A stretch of DNA of 64,000 nt from Planctomycetota bacterium. GTDB lineage: Bacteria > Planctomycetota > Planctomycetia > Gemmatales > Gemmataceae. Under the pieces are notes generated by a model, which was given only the letters and a program-made list of their open reading frames with translations, had not been told where the DNA came from and made no database searches. Position 1 is the first letter of the stretch. Every line of letters begins with the position of its first letter. Positions 48,410 to 56,885 of the stretch are shown piece after piece. The stretch covers positions 1 through 64,000 of the forward strand of contig JACPPF010000178.1 of the NCBI GenBank assembly GCA_016191165.1, in the 5' to 3' direction. Position numbers and translations under genes: made by a program.

Positions 48410-49396
48410 TTAGCCGCTCGCCCTGGGCGAGCGTGCATAACGAAAAAACAGCGCGCGCCAGCCGACACCGCGGCGCATCTGCTCATCGAAGATCACACAC
48501 AGAAGCAGCGCTCCGCCGACGACCGTGGGCTCCAGGGTGCTGGGGATTTCCCACATATTGGTCAAGTTCGGCAGCAAACGCATGATCGCCGTGCCGATGA
48601 GGATGCCCAGCGTCGAGCCTTCACCGCCGCGCAGACTGCAGCCGCCCAGCACGGCGCCGGCGATGGCGTACAGTTCCAGCGTTTCGCCCGTCTTGGGGGG
48701 TTCGACCGAGTTGTAATGGACGACATGCATGAGGGCGTAAATCGATGCGAACATCGAACAGAGGACATAGGCGAGGATCTTGTAGAAATTGGTGTTGATC
48801 CCGGAATAGGCCGCGGCACGCTCGTTGCTGCCGATGGCGTAGAAATACCGTCCGTGGACGGTCAGGTGCAGGAACACGCTGGCGAGGGCGAACAAGATCA
48901 GCAGGAACCAGAGATAGATCGGTATTTCCAGCACCGAGCCGCGGCAGAAATCGGTGATTGGCTTGACGTGGGTCACGATGAAAGGAACCTCGTCGTCCAT
49001 CACCCAGCGTGCGGCTCCGCGATAGAGAAACAGGCCGCACAAGGTGACGACGAATGCCTGAACGCGAAAGTAGGTAACCAGGAAACCATTGACGAAACCA
49101 ACCAAGGCTCCCAACATCATCACGAGCACAGCCGCCACGGGTATGGGTAAAGGATATTCCTCGTTCAGAACCAGCTTGCAAAAGACACAGGCGCACAGGC
49201 CGACGACGGACCCGATGGACAAATCCACGCCCCCGGCAATGATGAGCAATCCGGCGCCGAGGCACAAGATACCTTCCAGACCGATGCGTTGCCCTAGGTT
49301 TCGCCGATTGTCAGCCCAGCTGTCCGGATCCAGCGCGAGCAGGATCAGGCCATAAAGGGCAAGCATGAAGAGGAAGATGCCCAGGAGCTTTTTCAT
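48410..49396 (-). CDS. Sugar-type ABC transporter permease (RbsC-like)
   Basis: A 328-residue protein with about nine membrane segments. GGVDLSIGSVVGL and the loop LRGGEGSTLGILIG, which contacts the ATPase, are those of the ribose/xylose/AI-2 permease family (BPD_transp_2). It starts with an ATG overlapping the ATPase stop by four bases. Together with the upstream ATPase and solute-binding protein it makes a complete high-affinity importer. Substrate unknown but likely a monosaccharide or related polyol. Confidence 0.92.
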   Translation of the reverse strand: MKKLLGIFLFMLALYGLILLALDPDSWADNRRNLGQRIGLEGILCLGAGLLIIAGGVDLSIGSVVGLCACVFCKLVLNEEYPLPIPVAAVLVMMLGALVGFVNGFLVTYFRVQAFVVTLCGLFLYRGAARWVMDDEVPFIVTHVKPITDFCRGSVLEIPIYLWFLLILFALASVFLHLTVHGRYFYAIGSNERAAAYSGINTNFYKILAYVLCSMFASIYALMHVVHYNSVEPPKTGETLELYAIAGAVLGGCSLRGGEGSTLGILIGTAIMRLLPNLTNMWEIPSTLEPTVVGGALLLCVIFDEQMRRGVGWRALFFRYARSPRASG

Positions 49397-50928
49397 GTAC
49401 GGACGCCTCCGGTCGCCAGGTGCATGATCGCCTCCTCGGAGAGCGCCGCGCGCTCGAGTTCGCCGGCCACCGCGCCCTGGTGCATGACGAGAACCCGATC
49501 ACTCATGCCGAGAATCTCTTCGAGATCGCTGGAGATCATCAGCACGGCCGCGCCTTGCCGGGCCAGTTCATCCATCAGGGCGTAGATCTCGCTCTTGGCG
49601 CCGACGTCGATGCCGCGCGTCGGCTCGTCGAGGATCAACAGGCGCGGCGTCCGGCTGAGCCATTTCGCGAGGACTACCTTTTGCTGATTACCGCCGGAGA
49701 GGTTGCCAACGATCTGCGTCGTGCCCGGGGTGCGCACCCGGAAGCGATCGCACATAACCTGCGCGAGCCGGGCCTCCTGCCGGAAATGAACGAATCCGAA
49801 ACGGCTGACGTCCTGAAGCACCGCGATGCTGATGTTGTGCTTGACGTTGTCGTCCAGGATCAAGCCGTCGATGCGGCGATCTTCCGGAATGAGGAAGATG
49901 CCCGCGCGAATGGCGTCAGCCGGCCTTCCAAGCCGGATCGGTTTCCCATCGATCGCGATCGTCCCGGCAATCGACCGACGCACGCCAAACAAGGTTTCGG
50001 CCAGTTCCGTGCGACCTGAACCCATCAGGCCGGCCATGCCAACGATTTCCCCGGCGCGAATTGCAAACGAGATGCCCGGTTGCCGGGCGGACCAGCGGAG
50101 GCCCTGGACCTGGACGCGCGGCGCATCCACCTGGCCGGTTGCGCGGCCCGGCTCGCCAGAGGATGCTTCATGGCGCTGACGATGGAAAAATTGCTTCAAT
50201 TCGCGGCCCACCATCAGGTTGACGATGGCCTGATGGCAAATGTCGGCACGCGGCAGTTCGCCGGCGTTTCTCCCATCGCGCAGGACGACAACCCGATCCG
50301 CGATCTTCTCAACTTCCTTGAGGCGATGGGAGATGTACAGGATGCCGATACCGTCGTCCTTGAGTTCGCCAAGCACCGCGAAAAGGCGTTCCGTCTCACT
50401 TTCGGTGAGGCTGGATGTGGGTTCGTCGAGAATCAACACGCGTGACGACAGCGACAACGCCCGGGCGATTTCGACCAGTTGTTGCTGGCCAATGGACAGG
50501 TCGCGGACGAGGGCGCGCGTGTCGGTCGTTAGCCCGAGCCGGCGAGTGATCCGGGCCGAGTCGTCATGGATGCGGCGGCGGTCGATGAAGCCGAGGATAC
50601 CGCCCCAGGTTGGTTCGCGGCCCAGGTAGATATTGCCGGCGACATCGAGATGTCCCGCGAGATTGAGTTCCTGGTGGATCAGCACGATGCCAAGGTGCTC
50701 CGCTTCCTTGACACCACGGATCGAAACGGGACGGCCGTCCAGAGCGATCGTCCCGGCATCTGGCTGGTGGACCCCGGCGAGAATCTTCATGAGGGTGGAT
50801 TTGCCGGCTCCGTTCTCGCCGACCACCGCGAGGATTTCACCCGGAGCCAACTCAAGGTTGACCTTGGCAAGCGCTTGCACGCCGGGAAACGCCTTGGAGA
50901 CCCCGGTAACGGTAAGAAGAGGTGGCAT
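49393..50928 (-). CDS. Sugar-type ABC transporter ATP-binding protein, duplicated
   Basis: A 511-residue RbsA-like protein with two nucleotide-binding halves. The first half has GENGAGKST (37-45), LSIGQQQLVEIARAL and LILDEPTSSL. The second half has the degenerate Walker A (LMGSGRTELAE) and a complete LSGGNQQKVVLAKWL with LLILDEPTRGIDVG. This half-degenerate arrangement is normal for the family. It lies 23 bases downstream of the solute-binding protein and overlaps the permease by four bases. Confidence 0.95.
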   Translation of the reverse strand: MPPLLTVTGVSKAFPGVQALAKVNLELAPGEILAVVGENGAGKSTLMKILAGVHQPDAGTIALDGRPVSIRGVKEAEHLGIVLIHQELNLAGHLDVAGNIYLGREPTWGGILGFIDRRRIHDDSARITRRLGLTTDTRALVRDLSIGQQQLVEIARALSLSSRVLILDEPTSSLTESETERLFAVLGELKDDGIGILYISHRLKEVEKIADRVVVLRDGRNAGELPRADICHQAIVNLMVGRELKQFFHRQRHEASSGEPGRATGQVDAPRVQVQGLRWSARQPGISFAIRAGEIVGMAGLMGSGRTELAETLFGVRRSIAGTIAIDGKPIRLGRPADAIRAGIFLIPEDRRIDGLILDDNVKHNISIAVLQDVSRFGFVHFRQEARLAQVMCDRFRVRTPGTTQIVGNLSGGNQQKVVLAKWLSRTPRLLILDEPTRGIDVGAKSEIYALMDELARQGAAVLMISSDLEEILGMSDRVLVMHQGAVAGELERAALSEEAIMHLATGGVRT

Positions 50929-50951: not shown

Positions 50952-52016
50952 CTATCGCGCCGGCGTGACCTCGCCCATGTCGGTTTGGTCCTTGCCTGCC
51001 AGCACGTCCAGCACTCCCTGGCGGCGCTCGATCGCGTTGGTCGCGCCCATCTGGCCGACGAAAATTGCGACTTCGCCTCCGTTGGGAATTGCTTTTTTCA
51101 CGAGGTCCCCGGCCGAGCGCCCGGCGCGGTAATTGTGCGTGCCGATGTAGCAGAGCCGGGCGGACGAATCCGGCAGGTCGTTGTCCACCATCACGAGCTT
51201 GATTTTTGGCGCCACTTCGGTTTTGAAGAAGTCCTGGGCATTCTTCGGCTCGTTGGGGCTGACCGCGATCCCCTTGACGCCGCTACTGATCAAATCCTGG
51301 ATGATGTTGCGCTGGGTGGCGGGGGAACTATCCTGCGGCTTGCGGAAGATGAGCTGCACGCCGAATTCCTTGGCTGCGCGCTGGGCGCCTTTCTCGGCAA
51401 AGGTCCAGAACTCGAAGGCGTTGTTGGAGACGAAAGCAACCTTGGGTTTTCCGGTTTGATCGCCCGGGTCGATCTTTTGATTGAGAATCTTGTCCACGTC
51501 GGCCTTGAACTTGTCCACGCCGTCCTTGGTGACGACCTTGTGCTCGACGAAGATCGAGTTGTTCTTGGTGATGTTGGGGATCGATTTGAGGAAATCGTCA
51601 TTGCCCTTGGTGAGGAGGATCGCGAGAATCTTGATCGATTGGAAGCCGAATTGCTCCGGATCCTGGACCACGGTTCCCTCAATGCTGCCATCCTTGATTC
51701 CCTCAAGGGTTTGCTTGTTTTCATCGAACGCGACGATCGCCACCTTTTTGCCAGAGCCGCGCACGGCACGCAGGAGCGCCGGCGGATTGTATTCCCAGAG
51801 ACCCACCAGGCAGGCGACCTTGGGCCGCTTGAGGAGCAGATCTTCGGCATGGGTCTGGCATTTGGTGGCACTGCCTTCGTCGGTCTTGGTGGCGATCAAC
51901 TTGTAGCCGTTGCCCAGATCGAGATCAGCCGAAGTGCCGCCGCCGCGATTGCAGCCCGCCAGCGTGACGGCAGCGCCGATGATACCCAGGATGGCGAAGC
52001 AGGATCGCGATAACAT
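50952..52016 (-). CDS. Solute-binding lipoprotein with circularly permuted domain order
   Basis: A 354-residue lipoprotein (LAGC lipobox, Cys22) for the RbsA/RbsC-like importer. In the usual order this family begins KPKVAFVSNNAF...FWTFAEKGA and ends with the DLGNGYKL...VVTKDGV half. Here the order is swapped: after the lipobox come residues 30-178 (DLDLGNGYKLIATKTDEGSAT, LLKRPKVACLVGLWEYNPPALL, VAIVAFDEN), then a linker (NQKIDPGDQTG), then residues 190-354, which start KPKVAFVSNNAFEFW and end IERRQGVLDVLAGKD...GEVTPAR. The new ends lie in the loop after the IERRQGVLDVLA helix. The frame is open throughout, so it is a true permutation unless the assembly is wrong. Confidence 0.85.
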   Translation of the reverse strand: MLSRSCFAILGIIGAAVTLAGCNRGGGTSADLDLGNGYKLIATKTDEGSATKCQTHAEDLLLKRPKVACLVGLWEYNPPALLRAVRGSGKKVAIVAFDENKQTLEGIKDGSIEGTVVQDPEQFGFQSIKILAILLTKGNDDFLKSIPNITKNNSIFVEHKVVTKDGVDKFKADVDKILNQKIDPGDQTGKPKVAFVSNNAFEFWTFAEKGAQRAAKEFGVQLIFRKPQDSSPATQRNIIQDLISSGVKGIAVSPNEPKNAQDFFKTEVAPKIKLVMVDNDLPDSSARLCYIGTHNYRAGRSAGDLVKKAIPNGGEVAIFVGQMGATNAIERRQGVLDVLAGKDQTDMGEVTPAR

Positions 52017-52139: not shown

Positions 52140-52385
52140 TTCCTCGTTCCGAGGCTCCGCCTGGGAACGCACTACCCGCGAGGCTCTGCCTCGCGTCCAT
52201 CTGGCGGAAGCGATTCCGGGTTCGTGAGGCAGACCCCGCAACGTCGTGCGTTCCCAGGCAGATTCCTCGTTCCGAGGCTCCGCCTGGGAACGCACTGCCC
52301 GCGAGACTCTGCCTCGCGTCCATCTGGCGGAAGCGATTCCGGGTTCGTGAGGCAGAGCCCGCAACGTCGTGCGTTTCCAGACAGA
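52140..52385. repeat. Two tandem 123-bp repeats
   Basis: Unit 1 starts at 52140 and unit 2 at 52263, both beginning TTCCTCGTTCCGAGGCTCCG. They differ at only a few positions. Each unit contains palindromes (CGTTCC/GGAACG, GCGAG..CTCGC). It fills most of the space between the binding-protein start and the secreted hypothetical gene. The rest (52017-52139, 52386-52438) holds no gene that I can see. Confidence 0.85.
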
Positions 52386-52438: not shown

Positions 52439-53056
52439 TCAACGTTTGGTCGGCCGATCCAAGGGGATCACCGGCGGCATGGCGCTTTCCTCGGGTGGGT
52501 TTCGCAATTGACCATAGCGTAGATGCTCGAAAGGATCGGGCAGATTCAGCGGCAAAAACGGCACCGGCTCGTCCCGGCTTGGGCTCAGGTCCTTGAGCGC
52601 CACGGCGACACTGGCCTCGAAAGAGGGATCGCCCAGCGAGGCGCGATCGGCCTTGGGCTGCGCCAGGATCGGCAGCGGCGCCGGCGCGCTGGCATCCCGC
52701 GACGGTAAACGAAGCAGCGGTTGCGTCGGCAGTTCGATTATTGCCGGCAGCGGTGTGTCATCGCGAAATCCCGCCAGCGGCACGCCTGCGCGAAGCGGAG
52801 GAGGCGTCACCACCTTGCGTGGTAAAATCGGCAACCGCGCCGGCAGCCCCGCATAGGGCTTGAGCGGCGCCGCGATTCGCGTCACCACGCCCGACGCGGG
52901 CCACGCCACCGGCTTGGCGGTAAAACTCCCCCCAGGCGATACCCCCGCCGGCGCGACCAGTTCGGCAATGCGCTTTTCCACCTTCTCCCCCGCGCCTTGC
53001 GAAAACGCGGGCGAGCTGAGCACGGTCATACACAAAATGGCTGATAGGTATTTCAT
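52439..53056 (-). CDS. Secreted proline-rich hypothetical protein
   Basis: A 205-residue protein with a signal peptide (MKYLSAILCMTVLSSPAFS). The rest is rich in Pro, Ala and Leu with repeated PLPLLRLP-like turns and no hydrophobic core pattern, suggesting a mainly disordered or wall-associated protein. It ends ESAMPPVIPLDRPTKR. I do not recognise a family. A REP copy lies between it and the YdjY gene upstream on the same strand. Confidence 0.6.
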   Translation of the reverse strand: MKYLSAILCMTVLSSPAFSQGAGEKVEKRIAELVAPAGVSPGGSFTAKPVAWPASGVVTRIAAPLKPYAGLPARLPILPRKVVTPPPLRAGVPLAGFRDDTPLPAIIELPTQPLLRLPSRDASAPAPLPILAQPKADRASLGDPSFEASVAVALKDLSPSRDEPVPFLPLNLPDPFEHLRYGQLRNPPEESAMPPVIPLDRPTKR

Positions 53057-53072
53057 CTTGTTTTGTCCCTAT

Positions 53073-53104
53073 CCCAGGGGTTCGCTTCGCTCGCCCCTGG
53101 GCTT
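53073..53104. repeat. REP-like palindrome, copy 10 (variant loop)
   Basis: Inverted orientation: CCCAGGGG (53073-53080), 13-base loop, CCCCTGGG (53094-53101), CTT. Read in the forward sense the loop is CGAGCGAAGCGAA, one or two changes from the family. Confidence 0.75.
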
Positions 53105-53109
53105 CCTGG

Positions 53110-53802
53110 TTATTTCTTTTTCACTTCGATCACCAACTTCACGGGGGTGCCGGTCTTGGGCAGCACCTTGGTGTTCACCTCGAGCTTCATGAACTTTTCA
53201 AAGTCAATCGTCAAATTGGTTTGCAACACGGTCTCCGCGGTCACGGGGAAAATCGACATCAAGGTGCCGGAATGATCGGCGCCGTAGACCTTGGCGTCCT
53301 TGTTGGGATCGGGTTGGACCATCTTGGAGCCGGTGAAACGCCATTCGATGTTCTTCGGGAAGGGCTTGCCGCTGCGCTTGTCAACCATCACCTTGTCCAG
53401 CGTGACCTTGCGAGGGAATCCCGTGGGATCGGGGAGGATGAGGAAGACGTTGAGTGCCGGCCCTTTGGGTTCGCCCGGTCCCATCACGGGCGTTCCCGCC
53501 TTGAGTCCGAGCGATTCGAGCGCCTTGTGAACGTCGCTTGGCTTGATCGAGTCGTCCAGGGTCACGATCGTCTCGTGCGCCTTCTTCCCCTTGGGGTGGG
53601 CCCAGGTCGCGATCACTTCGAGCGGATAAATCTCCCCTTTCAGGTGGGGCAACTTGCGTAGTGCGATCAGGACATCGATCGTGACGGTTTTCTTTTCTTT
53701 ATCGACAACCAGCTTGCCGGGCCCCGGCTTCGTCTCCTGGGACGGAAGCCGCGCCGCCGAGGCGACAAGAAGGCATGACAGGACGAAAAAAAATCGCTTC
53801 AT
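53110..53802 (-). CDS. Secreted YdjY-domain protein
   Basis: A 230-residue protein with signal peptide (MKRFFFVLSCLLVASAARLPS). The domain is recognised by VVDKEKKTVTIDVLIALRK, YPLEVIATWAHPKGKKAHETIVTLD and the conserved DVHKALESLGLKAGTPV. YdjY proteins occur with ferredoxin-like or cytochrome systems in some bacteria; their role is not known. GGAG stands six bases before the ATG. The PQQ-propeller gene ends 75 bases upstream of the start. Confidence 0.85.
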   Translation of the reverse strand: MKRFFFVLSCLLVASAARLPSQETKPGPGKLVVDKEKKTVTIDVLIALRKLPHLKGEIYPLEVIATWAHPKGKKAHETIVTLDDSIKPSDVHKALESLGLKAGTPVMGPGEPKGPALNVFLILPDPTGFPRKVTLDKVMVDKRSGKPFPKNIEWRFTGSKMVQPDPNKDAKVYGADHSGTLMSIFPVTAETVLQTNLTIDFEKFMKLEVNTKVLPKTGTPVKLVIEVKKK

Positions 53803-53824
53803 GGGGAACTCCATTTGATAACCC

Positions 53825-53872
53825 TGCTTGCGTTTAGCGTAAGCGCGGCGCCGTGCGGGCGCTAAACGGGGC
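53825..53872. repeat. TTGCGTTTAGCG-type inverted repeat
   Basis: TGCTTGCGTTTAGCG (53825-53839) pairs loosely with CGCTAAACGGGGC (53860-53872). Same class as 12331-12384 and the sites at 43970 and 44958. It separates the YdjY and PQQ-propeller genes. Confidence 0.55.
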
Positions 53873-53876
53873 ACGG

Positions 53877-55313
53877 TCATTTCTCACCAACACACACCAC
53901 GGCGGTCGCCTTGCCCGCGTAGGGCCCTTGCAGGTTGCACGTTGCGACATACAGGCGACCGCCCTGCACGACCGGACCGCCGTAGATCATTCCGGGCGCC
54001 TGGACGGCCTTGTCCTGGCCCAGGTCCAGCTTCCATTTCGCCGCGCCGGTGCGCAGGTCCATGGCGTGGAGGACGCCGCGCAAGTCGCCGGCGTACACCG
54101 TGTCCTTCGCGATGGCGGCCGGAGCGAAGAGCGGCATCTTGGCGTCGTAGATCCACTGCCGATCGCCGGTCGCGACGTCGAAGGCGCGAACCTTGCCGTC
54201 GGTCGAGGTCACGACCGCCGAGCCGTTGGCAAGGGCCGCGCACGCGATCGTGCCGCCGGTGACGGTTTTGGTCCAGCGCGGCTTGCCCGATTTCAGATCG
54301 AATGCCGCGACGAGGCCCTTGGCGCCTTTCAGAATGTTGTAGTCAAAAGCGATGGTGCTGCCCGTGACAATGACGGTGTCGCCCAGGACCGACGGCCCGC
54401 CCCAGGGGTTGAGCTTGAGCGGCGCCTGCCAGACGATGGCGCCGGTTTTCGCGTCGAGGCAGTAAAGCGCCCGGCTGCCGACCTGCTCCTTGTCGAGGAA
54501 CGCGGAGGCGACGAGCACCTTGTCGCCGATGACGTTGACCGGGGCATCGACGTGCCACTTGTCCTTGCCCTGCTGCCAGGCGCGCTTCGGCTCGGCTTTG
54601 GGAAGCTGATCTTCGCTCGGCGGCATCGCGAACATCGGGTTTTGCTTTTTCTCGATCAGGTACTTCGCTTCCAGCGCCTGCCAGGCCTTGGCCATCAGTT
54701 TTTGCAGGGTCGGAAGATCGTAGGCTTTGCCGTTGATGGCAGCGTGATCGATTTCCACGCACAGGACGCCCGCCGCCCCGCCGCCGATGTAGGCCTTGCC
54801 GTCCACGATGGTCGGCGAGCCTTCGAGATGCACGAGGTCTCCCGGAACCGAATGCCGCCAGAGCGGAGCGCCCAGGGTTGCTTCGAGGCAATAGAGCACC
54901 GCACCGTTGGTCTGGTGCATGCCGTCGCCGAAGACGAGATAGTTCTTGAACACGCCCGGCGAGCTGACGGTGGGCAACTTCAGGTAGGGCGTCGATTTCG
55001 ACCACAGCACGCGCGACTTGATGTTGGCGTCGGTGGCCAGGCATGCGAAGTTGCCGGTGTTGAACGCGCCGAGGCCTGAAACGTAAAGGCGATTACCGAC
55101 AGGGACCGGCGAGGCGATGTAGTTATCCTTGGACTTGAGCGCCCAGAGCACCTTGGGCGACGCGGGGCCGGCGCCGCCGTCGGACGCGGTGCGCTGCGGG
55201 TTGGCGCGGTAGGTGGACCAGGGAGCGGGGGATTGGGCGTGGACGCTGGCGACTGGGAAAAAGGCCACCGTAAAGGCCAAGGACCACAGCAGGGATACCT
55301 TGAGTTCGATCAT
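53877..55313 (-). CDS. PQQ-like beta-propeller secreted protein
   Basis: A 478-residue protein with a signal segment (MIELKVSLLWSLAFTVAFFPVASVHA). It contains about seven propeller repeats with the marks GKPRWTKTVTGGTIA, KTGAIVWQAPL, DVATGDRQWIYDA, LRTGAAKWKL, each ending in a Trp-docking G-x-x-x-W. No catalytic residue for PQQ enzymes is evident, so it is probably a scaffold or binding protein. A long insert (residues about 210-260) with AAINGKAYDLPTLQKLMAKAWQ breaks the propeller. It lies upstream of the YdjY gene on the same strand. Confidence 0.82.
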   Translation of the reverse strand: MIELKVSLLWSLAFTVAFFPVASVHAQSPAPWSTYRANPQRTASDGGAGPASPKVLWALKSKDNYIASPVPVGNRLYVSGLGAFNTGNFACLATDANIKSRVLWSKSTPYLKLPTVSSPGVFKNYLVFGDGMHQTNGAVLYCLEATLGAPLWRHSVPGDLVHLEGSPTIVDGKAYIGGGAAGVLCVEIDHAAINGKAYDLPTLQKLMAKAWQALEAKYLIEKKQNPMFAMPPSEDQLPKAEPKRAWQQGKDKWHVDAPVNVIGDKVLVASAFLDKEQVGSRALYCLDAKTGAIVWQAPLKLNPWGGPSVLGDTVIVTGSTIAFDYNILKGAKGLVAAFDLKSGKPRWTKTVTGGTIACAALANGSAVVTSTDGKVRAFDVATGDRQWIYDAKMPLFAPAAIAKDTVYAGDLRGVLHAMDLRTGAAKWKLDLGQDKAVQAPGMIYGGPVVQGGRLYVATCNLQGPYAGKATAVVCVGEK

Positions 55314-55786: not shown

Positions 55787-56287
55787 TTACACGGGCACGC
55801 CCGAGCGAAGGAAATAGACCATCGCCCAAATGCGATCGGTTTCGCCGCGGTCAATTACCTCGACCGGCTTCAAGCCGCCGAAGGCCGGATTGGGATTTTG
55901 CAGCCATCGCCCAAGCGCGTCGCTGATGATGACTTCTTCGATGGCATTGGTGAGCCGCGATATTTCGTTTAGGCGGCGCGCCACCGCTTCGGTGGGGGTA
56001 ACGCCGCTTTCCAGGGTCGCCAAGGTTCGGACTGAAAGACCAAGTAATCGGGCAAACACTGGCTGACCGAGTTGCAATCGTTTCCGAAGCTCAAGGGCCA
56101 GATTTTCGTTTGGCACGACGGCTTTTGCGCTTGCGGCATGCGGCATGGTCTTGGCTTTGCGGCGTTTTTTGGCCTTTTTTTTGGCCTGAATTTGAATGGC
56201 CATGAGCAGACTCGCTTTCAAGGGCTTTTGCTCCCAATATTTTTCCATTATCGCAGCCTGGATCCTCGGAGGCAAGCAATTTTGCAT
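55787..56287 (-). CDS. Xre/MbcA/ParS-type antitoxin of a RES-Xre module
   Basis: A 166-residue protein with a basic N-terminus (KKKAKKRRKAK). The HTH is LRKRLQLGQPVFARLLGLSVRTLATLESG, and the toxin-binding helix domain follows (VARRLNEISRLTNAIEEVI and AFGGLKPVEVIDRGETDRIWAMVYFLRSG). This is the typical partner of RES toxins: it neutralises the toxin and represses the operon. The start is unclear. ATG 56287 is used, while a TTG six bases earlier and later ATGs at 56248 and 56200 are possible. It follows the toxin gene by about 16 bases, so gene order is toxin then antitoxin. Confidence 0.82.
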   Translation of the reverse strand: MQNCLPPRIQAAIMEKYWEQKPLKASLLMAIQIQAKKKAKKRRKAKTMPHAASAKAVVPNENLALELRKRLQLGQPVFARLLGLSVRTLATLESGVTPTEAVARRLNEISRLTNAIEEVIISDALGRWLQNPNPAFGGLKPVEVIDRGETDRIWAMVYFLRSGVPV

Positions 56288-56303
56288 GTCCAATTACATG
56301 CAT

Positions 56304-56885
56304 TTAGGCGTGCAAATTTTCAGCGCGGAACACCCGGAATGAACTGCTGGCCTCAAGGTTTGCCGGGAATACCAAAAGATTGTGCCCTTTTGGATCTGCC
56401 GCGGACGGCACGATCATTCCCTCCCTTTTCCCTTCGTGGACTGCTCGGCCGATCGTCTGGGTGATCGGTTCGTGGCCCGCTCTTGCTTCTTGGCGCCAAT
56501 CAACCGTGAGGATTCGCTCTTCGGAAACCTGGAGCCGACGACGAACGCCGCCGTCGCAAAAATCGAGAACCACCCGAAGCGCCGACTCGATTGCCACAAA
56601 CGTCCGTGGCATCGCATCCTCGATCGGAATGCCATAATAACGATGGTGAGCCAATGTTTCCGCCATTGCTATCTCTGGAGTCAACGAGGCATACACGACG
56701 GCGATGCCAATCGGGTTCCAGCGTCCGCCGTTCCGTCGGCTACCTTCCCCTGTGAGCAAGTCGGCTTCCGTTGCGTAATGAGGCGTAGTCGACCGATAGG
56801 CAATCCCGGAGAACGATTTGGCCACGGGAAGCAGCCGTGTCAATCGGTCCTTGAGTTGCGCGAGGGTTGGTCCAGGGTTGGCCAT
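56304..56885 (-). CDS. RES-domain toxin
   Basis: A 193-residue protein. RES toxins are ADP-ribosyltransferase-like and deplete NAD+. The three name-giving residues are seen: Arg31 in AYRSTTPHYA, Glu76 in AMAETLAHHRYYG, and a Ser in ASSSFRVF near the end. GGRWNPIGIAVVYAS is the other family block. The gene starts five bases after the FG-GAP gene ends and precedes its antitoxin. RES-Xre modules generally place the antitoxin first, so the reversed order is notable. Confidence 0.87.
   Translation of the reverse strand: MANPGPTLAQLKDRLTRLLPVAKSFSGIAYRSTTPHYATEADLLTGEGSRRNGGRWNPIGIAVVYASLTPEIAMAETLAHHRYYGIPIEDAMPRTFVAIESALRVVLDFCDGGVRRRLQVSEERILTVDWRQEARAGHEPITQTIGRAVHEGKREGMIVPSAADPKGHNLLVFPANLEASSSFRVFRAENLHA

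Follow-up and report, generated by a model that had tools for sequence, protein, structure and literature searches.

On the minus strand of the window, by which we mean the whole 64,000-nucleotide stretch of planctomycete DNA analyzed here, positions 50952-52016 carry an uninterrupted open reading frame (354 aa plus stop) for a circularly permuted sugar-binding lipoprotein of the CUT2 (RbsB/Peripla_BP_4) type. Residues 1-22 (51951-52016, minus strand) constitute a signal peptide with the lipobox LAGC, whose Cys was found to be invariant across 16 permuted relatives; Cys22 is probably lipid-modified. Then follow, all on the minus strand, what is ordinarily the C-terminal half (residues 38-174; 51495-51905; positions 1-133 of the C profile, 160 bits), the joint where the old C- and N-termini meet (residues 175-190, DKILNQKIDPGDQTGK; 51447-51494), what is ordinarily the N-terminal half (residues 191-341; 50994-51446; positions 1-149 of the N profile, 212 bits), and a new C-terminal tail, KDQTDMGEVTPAR (50955-50993), which corresponds to the beginning of the interdomain linker of normal proteins (KDLKDMGELTPA.. 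in L006).

The swapped order, the open frame and the lipobox in front had all been proposed in an earlier note made from the sequence alone, and each was borne out. Normal binding proteins match the protein as two exchanged stretches, and PF13407 (Peripla_BP_4) does likewise, scoring 178.8 bits against a curated cut-off of 35.1, with residues 199-341 aligned to profile positions 8-149 in the best stretch. Comparisons with Pfam, NCBIfam and the PDB agree that, in RbsB-type proteins, the counterpart of residues ~190-341 is the N-terminal half and that of residues ~38-178 the C-terminal half. Against the Thermotoga maritima glucose-binding protein (2qvc, 2h3h), residues 195-340 align with its positions 7-151 and residues 43-170 with its positions 160-293, confirming the proposed homology of residues 30-178 to the usual C-terminal half. 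The protein lacks the normal N-C order of CUT2 binding proteins and is therefore a permuted variant. Residues F203-W204, D278, D280, N327, R331, N77, D98-E99 and Q118 are invariant in its permuted relatives.

The joint and the neighboring genes

Residue 190 marks the start of the strand KPKVAFVSNNAF, and NQKIDPGDQTG lies directly ahead of it, exactly as had been claimed. The start of the joint (KILNQ) resembles the C-terminus of normal proteins from the same genus (KILGQ/EILGK), its end (QTGKPKVAF) resembles their old mature N-terminus (SQSGKPKVAF), and about six residues in the middle (KIDPGD) are new. At the other break, the remainder of the interdomain linker (TDLDLGNG in L008) now forms the mature N-terminus (..ADLDLGNG). 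Residues 22-187 and 190-342 of L008, a protein of 344 residues, are both retained in the permuted protein; thus, nothing was lost and only the cut point has moved, as in a strict circular permutation.

No relics of a duplicated copy were found in the flanks of the permuted gene. Upstream of it, at 52140-52385, a partly palindromic 123-bp repeat stands twice in tandem, the copies being 96% alike; this repeat has 55 matches across the whole genome and none at the corresponding locus of G002, a genome of the same genus that also carries the permuted gene. Being dispersed and absent from that locus, the repeat is not a shared cause of the permutation.

The importer genes that adjoin the gene downstream were described as normal, and they are: an RbsA-like sugar ABC transporter ATPase of 511 aa with two ABC_tran domains (49393-50928, minus strand) is followed by an RbsC-like permease of 328 aa with a BPD_transp_2 domain (48410-49396, minus strand). 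Such a pair, a double-ABC ATPase with a BPD_transp_2 permease, next to the binding-protein gene is the setting of a CUT2 system. On the opposite side, 52439-53880 encodes a pair of neighboring proteins that match nothing in Pfam; G001, G002 and G006 conserve both in the corresponding slot. Further along, 55787-56885 encodes an Xre/MbcA/ParS antitoxin-like protein and, next to it, a RES-domain protein; together they look like a RES-Xre toxin-antitoxin pair.

Fold and structural relatives

Structure prediction from 16 permuted homologues yielded a confident AlphaFold (AF2) model (pLDDT 87, pTM 0.83), which suggests an ordinary two-lobed type I fold, inferred in its details. Foldseek ranked PDB 5er3, a solute-binding protein of Rhodopirellula baltica SH 1 released in 2015, first (321 columns, TM 0.79 by target); normal binding proteins matched across only ~153 columns, which is what an order-dependent search would be expected to give for a permuted chain. 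In sequence, 5er3 is collinear with the protein across the joint, in a single stretch covering residues 37-343 (E 1e-63), at about 37% identity. The half order itself is thus not new, being already present in a solved structure. The closest well-studied normal relatives by sequence, the T. maritima glucose-binding protein (2h3h, 2qvc, 3c6q) together with 5hqj, have the normal order.

In the predicted model, the N-lobe strands from E192-196 to E289-293 keep their normal order. The new ends had been placed just after the IERRQGVLDVLAG helix, and there they lie, in what is normally the interdomain linker; the cut itself is probably inside the C-lobe, after its first helix, rather than between the lobes. 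This placement draws on the AlphaFold model and on the known lobe layout of RbsB-type proteins, to which we take the segments of the permuted protein to conform.

Our literature search, which covered few subscription journals, found no paper on permutation in 5er3 or in planctomycetes, none on repeated permutation in the CUT2 binding-protein family, and only one relevant published precedent, TpMglB-2 (Tp0684) of Treponema pallidum. TpMglB-2 (PDB 5jx2, 6bgc), classified as "Type Ic / Cluster Bc", binds glucose and changes conformation (PMC4990184). It too is a naturally circularly permuted type I sugar-binding lipoprotein with adjoining importer genes. However, its cut lies inside the N-lobe, which puts the three leading N-lobe strands at the C-terminal end and creates a fourth hinge crossing (PMC4990184), whereas the protein described here appears to have an intact N-lobe order and a cut in the C-lobe. 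The two are weak structural matches (TM about 0.36-0.40 by Foldseek), and, as modeled, our protein falls outside Type Ic / Cluster Bc. Brautigam et al. suggested that the altered topology of TpMglB-2 may relate to membrane tethering (PMC4990184).

Two orders in one genus and repeated order changes

Seven genomes of the window's genus were compared. The permuted form is present in G000 and G002 and the normal form in G001, G005 and G006; the same-genus search found no matching gene in G003 or G004. A gene row comprising FG-GAP, PQQ, two unknown genes, the binding protein, the ATPase and the permease is conserved in G000, G001 and G006, and hence accompanies both orders. G002 keeps the same row up to the end of its contig inside the ATPase gene, and G005 retains the binding protein, ATPase and permease. 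At least two of the three normal forms in the genus therefore occupy the same conserved operon slot, and the ATPase is 71-78% identical to the gene adjoining the normal and permuted orthologues of the genus.

A search for relatives with the same order led to the second permuted species of the genus, whose protein shares 82% aa identity with that of the window. Between these two genes (G000 and G002), dN is 0.12 and dS 1.07, and the resulting dN/dS of about 0.12 indicates purifying selection. Normal orthologues from the genus are 68-70% (N half) and 60-62% (C half) identical to the permuted protein; permuted proteins of other lineages are only 41-55% and 37-48% identical, respectively. When separate trees were built from the halves, each half placed the two permuted proteins, L001 and L002, with the same normal proteins of the genus. 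The simplest reading is a change from normal to permuted within the genus, because the proteins in the neighboring rows of the tree, L009 and L012, are normal.

A match is present in 93 of 102 genomes of the order; the best matches listed include permuted forms from five genomes in three lineages, the remainder being normal. Three circular arrangements besides the normal one were found across the class and phylum. The first, cpA, is the arrangement of the protein at 50952-52016 (C-half, then N-half), and it is also present in single-contig genomes. In cpB, the cut falls inside the C-half near profile position 54, giving the order C[54-134]-N-C[1-54] with the lipobox kept; its members are L039 (G250), L040 (G419), L127 (G597), L128 (G672), L211, L226 and L229, one of which is predicted to fold well (pLDDT 86.6, pTM 0.82), and L084 and L085 may represent another, distant example. 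In cpC (L124 of G671 and L126 of G737), the cut falls inside the N-half near position 120, before the strand VMIFVG, giving N[121-149]-C-N[1-120]. The cpB and cpC cuts each lie within a helix-to-strand loop. One protein, L195 of Opitutia bacterium UBA7876, shows a non-circular swap (C[1-106]-N-C[107-134]), known from one metagenome assembly.

A careful tree of 76 rejoined proteins requires 10 order changes (bootstrap range 10-11), and its starred branches force at least seven changes for cpA, two for cpB and one for cpC. The sequences of cpB, cpC and several of the cpA lineages come from metagenome-assembled genomes, and for several lineages from a single one. Trees of the halves alone give 10 and 11 changes. 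The widest tree, to which named Verrucomicrobiota, Armatimonadota, Omnitrophota and others were added, gives 14 changes, although the scan behind it used permuted queries, so that the proportion of permuted forms should not be taken as a census. In this tree, cpA members sit near the root, and the directions of the deepest changes are therefore ambiguous. Several origins are nevertheless evident, and the sequences point to some ten or more changes of order, with several different cut points, within a single protein family.

These results also bear on how the earlier suggestion should be worded. The analysis supports natural circular permutation as the reading of this ABC solute-binding lipoprotein; its supposed rarity has to be qualified, with the same order found in 5er3 and in many planctomycete, verrucomicrobial and armatimonad genomes. 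The unusual feature is the repeated origin of the swap, once within the window's own genus.

Alternative explanations

The occurrence of cpA in several phyla and near the root of the widest tree might suggest that the permutation happened once, long ago, and then spread by descent or by horizontal transfer, the adjoining normal copies being reversions or replacements. We consider this highly unlikely. Approximately unbiased (AU) tests rejected a single clade of all cpA proteins (p = 1.6e-5), of the five Gemmatales cpA proteins (p = 2.65e-7) and of L001-L004 (p = 8.3e-5), and the trees of the separate halves agree with this. From one permuted lineage to another, the junctions vary in length and sequence, and both orders share one operon slot in the window's genus. 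Some of the deep changes could be returns to the normal order, but such reversions would themselves be permutation events. On the evidence here, a permuted ancestor shared with the lineage of 5er3 is likewise rejected, with the qualification that 5er3 was placed in its separate permuted lineage through its Pirellulaceae relatives, which entered the one-clade test in its stead.

An error of assembly or binning, in which neighboring or repeated pieces of a metagenome-assembled genome were misjoined, would fit the multi-contig state of G000 and G002 and the tandem repeat just upstream of the gene. It is nonetheless very improbable: G002 has the same order and joint at 82% aa identity without the repeat, single-contig genomes and a crystal structure show an equal order, the frame and lipobox are clean, and the joint fits both old termini. 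That two different binding proteins each contributed a half, an origin that Brautigam et al. considered for a poorly conserved part of Treponema MglB-2 (PMC4990184), is hardly credible here, given that the half trees agree on the same-genus normal partners of L001 and L002 and that both halves closely resemble the normal proteins of the genus, at the identities given above. That the gene is a non-functional rearrangement left in the operon is just as hard to reconcile with the low dN/dS between the two permuted species, the intact frame and signal peptide, the confidently predicted fold and the conserved importer genes.

Proposed origin and significance

The explanation that we favor with considerable confidence is that the gene encodes a working component of a CUT2 importer, permuted in situ within the genus, likely by tandem duplication and trimming, as one of some ten or more order changes in the family. 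The gene would have been duplicated in tandem within the operon, the two copies fused in frame, and the first N-half and last C-half then lost; this would have tied the old termini together with a short linker and created new ones in the loop that follows the first C-lobe helix. Duplication, fusion and trimming is the standard model of permutation (PMC3320104). Here, this route is the most likely one, as judged from the clean joint alone; no duplicated or fused intermediates (tandem or double copies) were found among the loci fetched. The protein would bind a monosaccharide in its cleft and hand it to the adjacent RbsA/RbsC-type importer. In this it would resemble 5er3 and, more loosely, TpMglB-2. 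Because the lipobox Cys is invariant in the 16 permuted relatives, the N-terminal lipid anchor would now sit on the C-lobe and no longer on the N-lobe.

As a rule, natural circular permutations come to light late, after long divergence, and their origins are argued from distant pairs. The recurrent permutation of DNA methyltransferases and the saposin/swaposin case provide precedents both for permutation in nature and for an origin by duplication (PMC3320104). Those are different proteins; in the present case, a before-and-after pair stands in one genus and one operon slot. With permuted and normal orthologues in a single slot, the mechanism of permutation (duplication and trimming versus fission and fusion) becomes testable, and recurrent changes at several cut points make it testable which loops tolerate new ends. 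The permuted proteins also provide natural templates for permuted binding proteins in biosensors, and they are a caution for users of annotation pipelines and order-dependent searches, which split such proteins or misread them.

More speculatively, and at present rather doubtfully, the CUT2 lipoproteins of planctomycetes and neighboring phyla may constitute a permutation hot spot, with at least ten events, at least three cut points and changes in both directions over time, selected through an anchor that, once moved to the other lobe, alters how the protein meets its importer. The same-genus pair would make this tethering idea testable, by asking whether a moved lipid anchor changes import.
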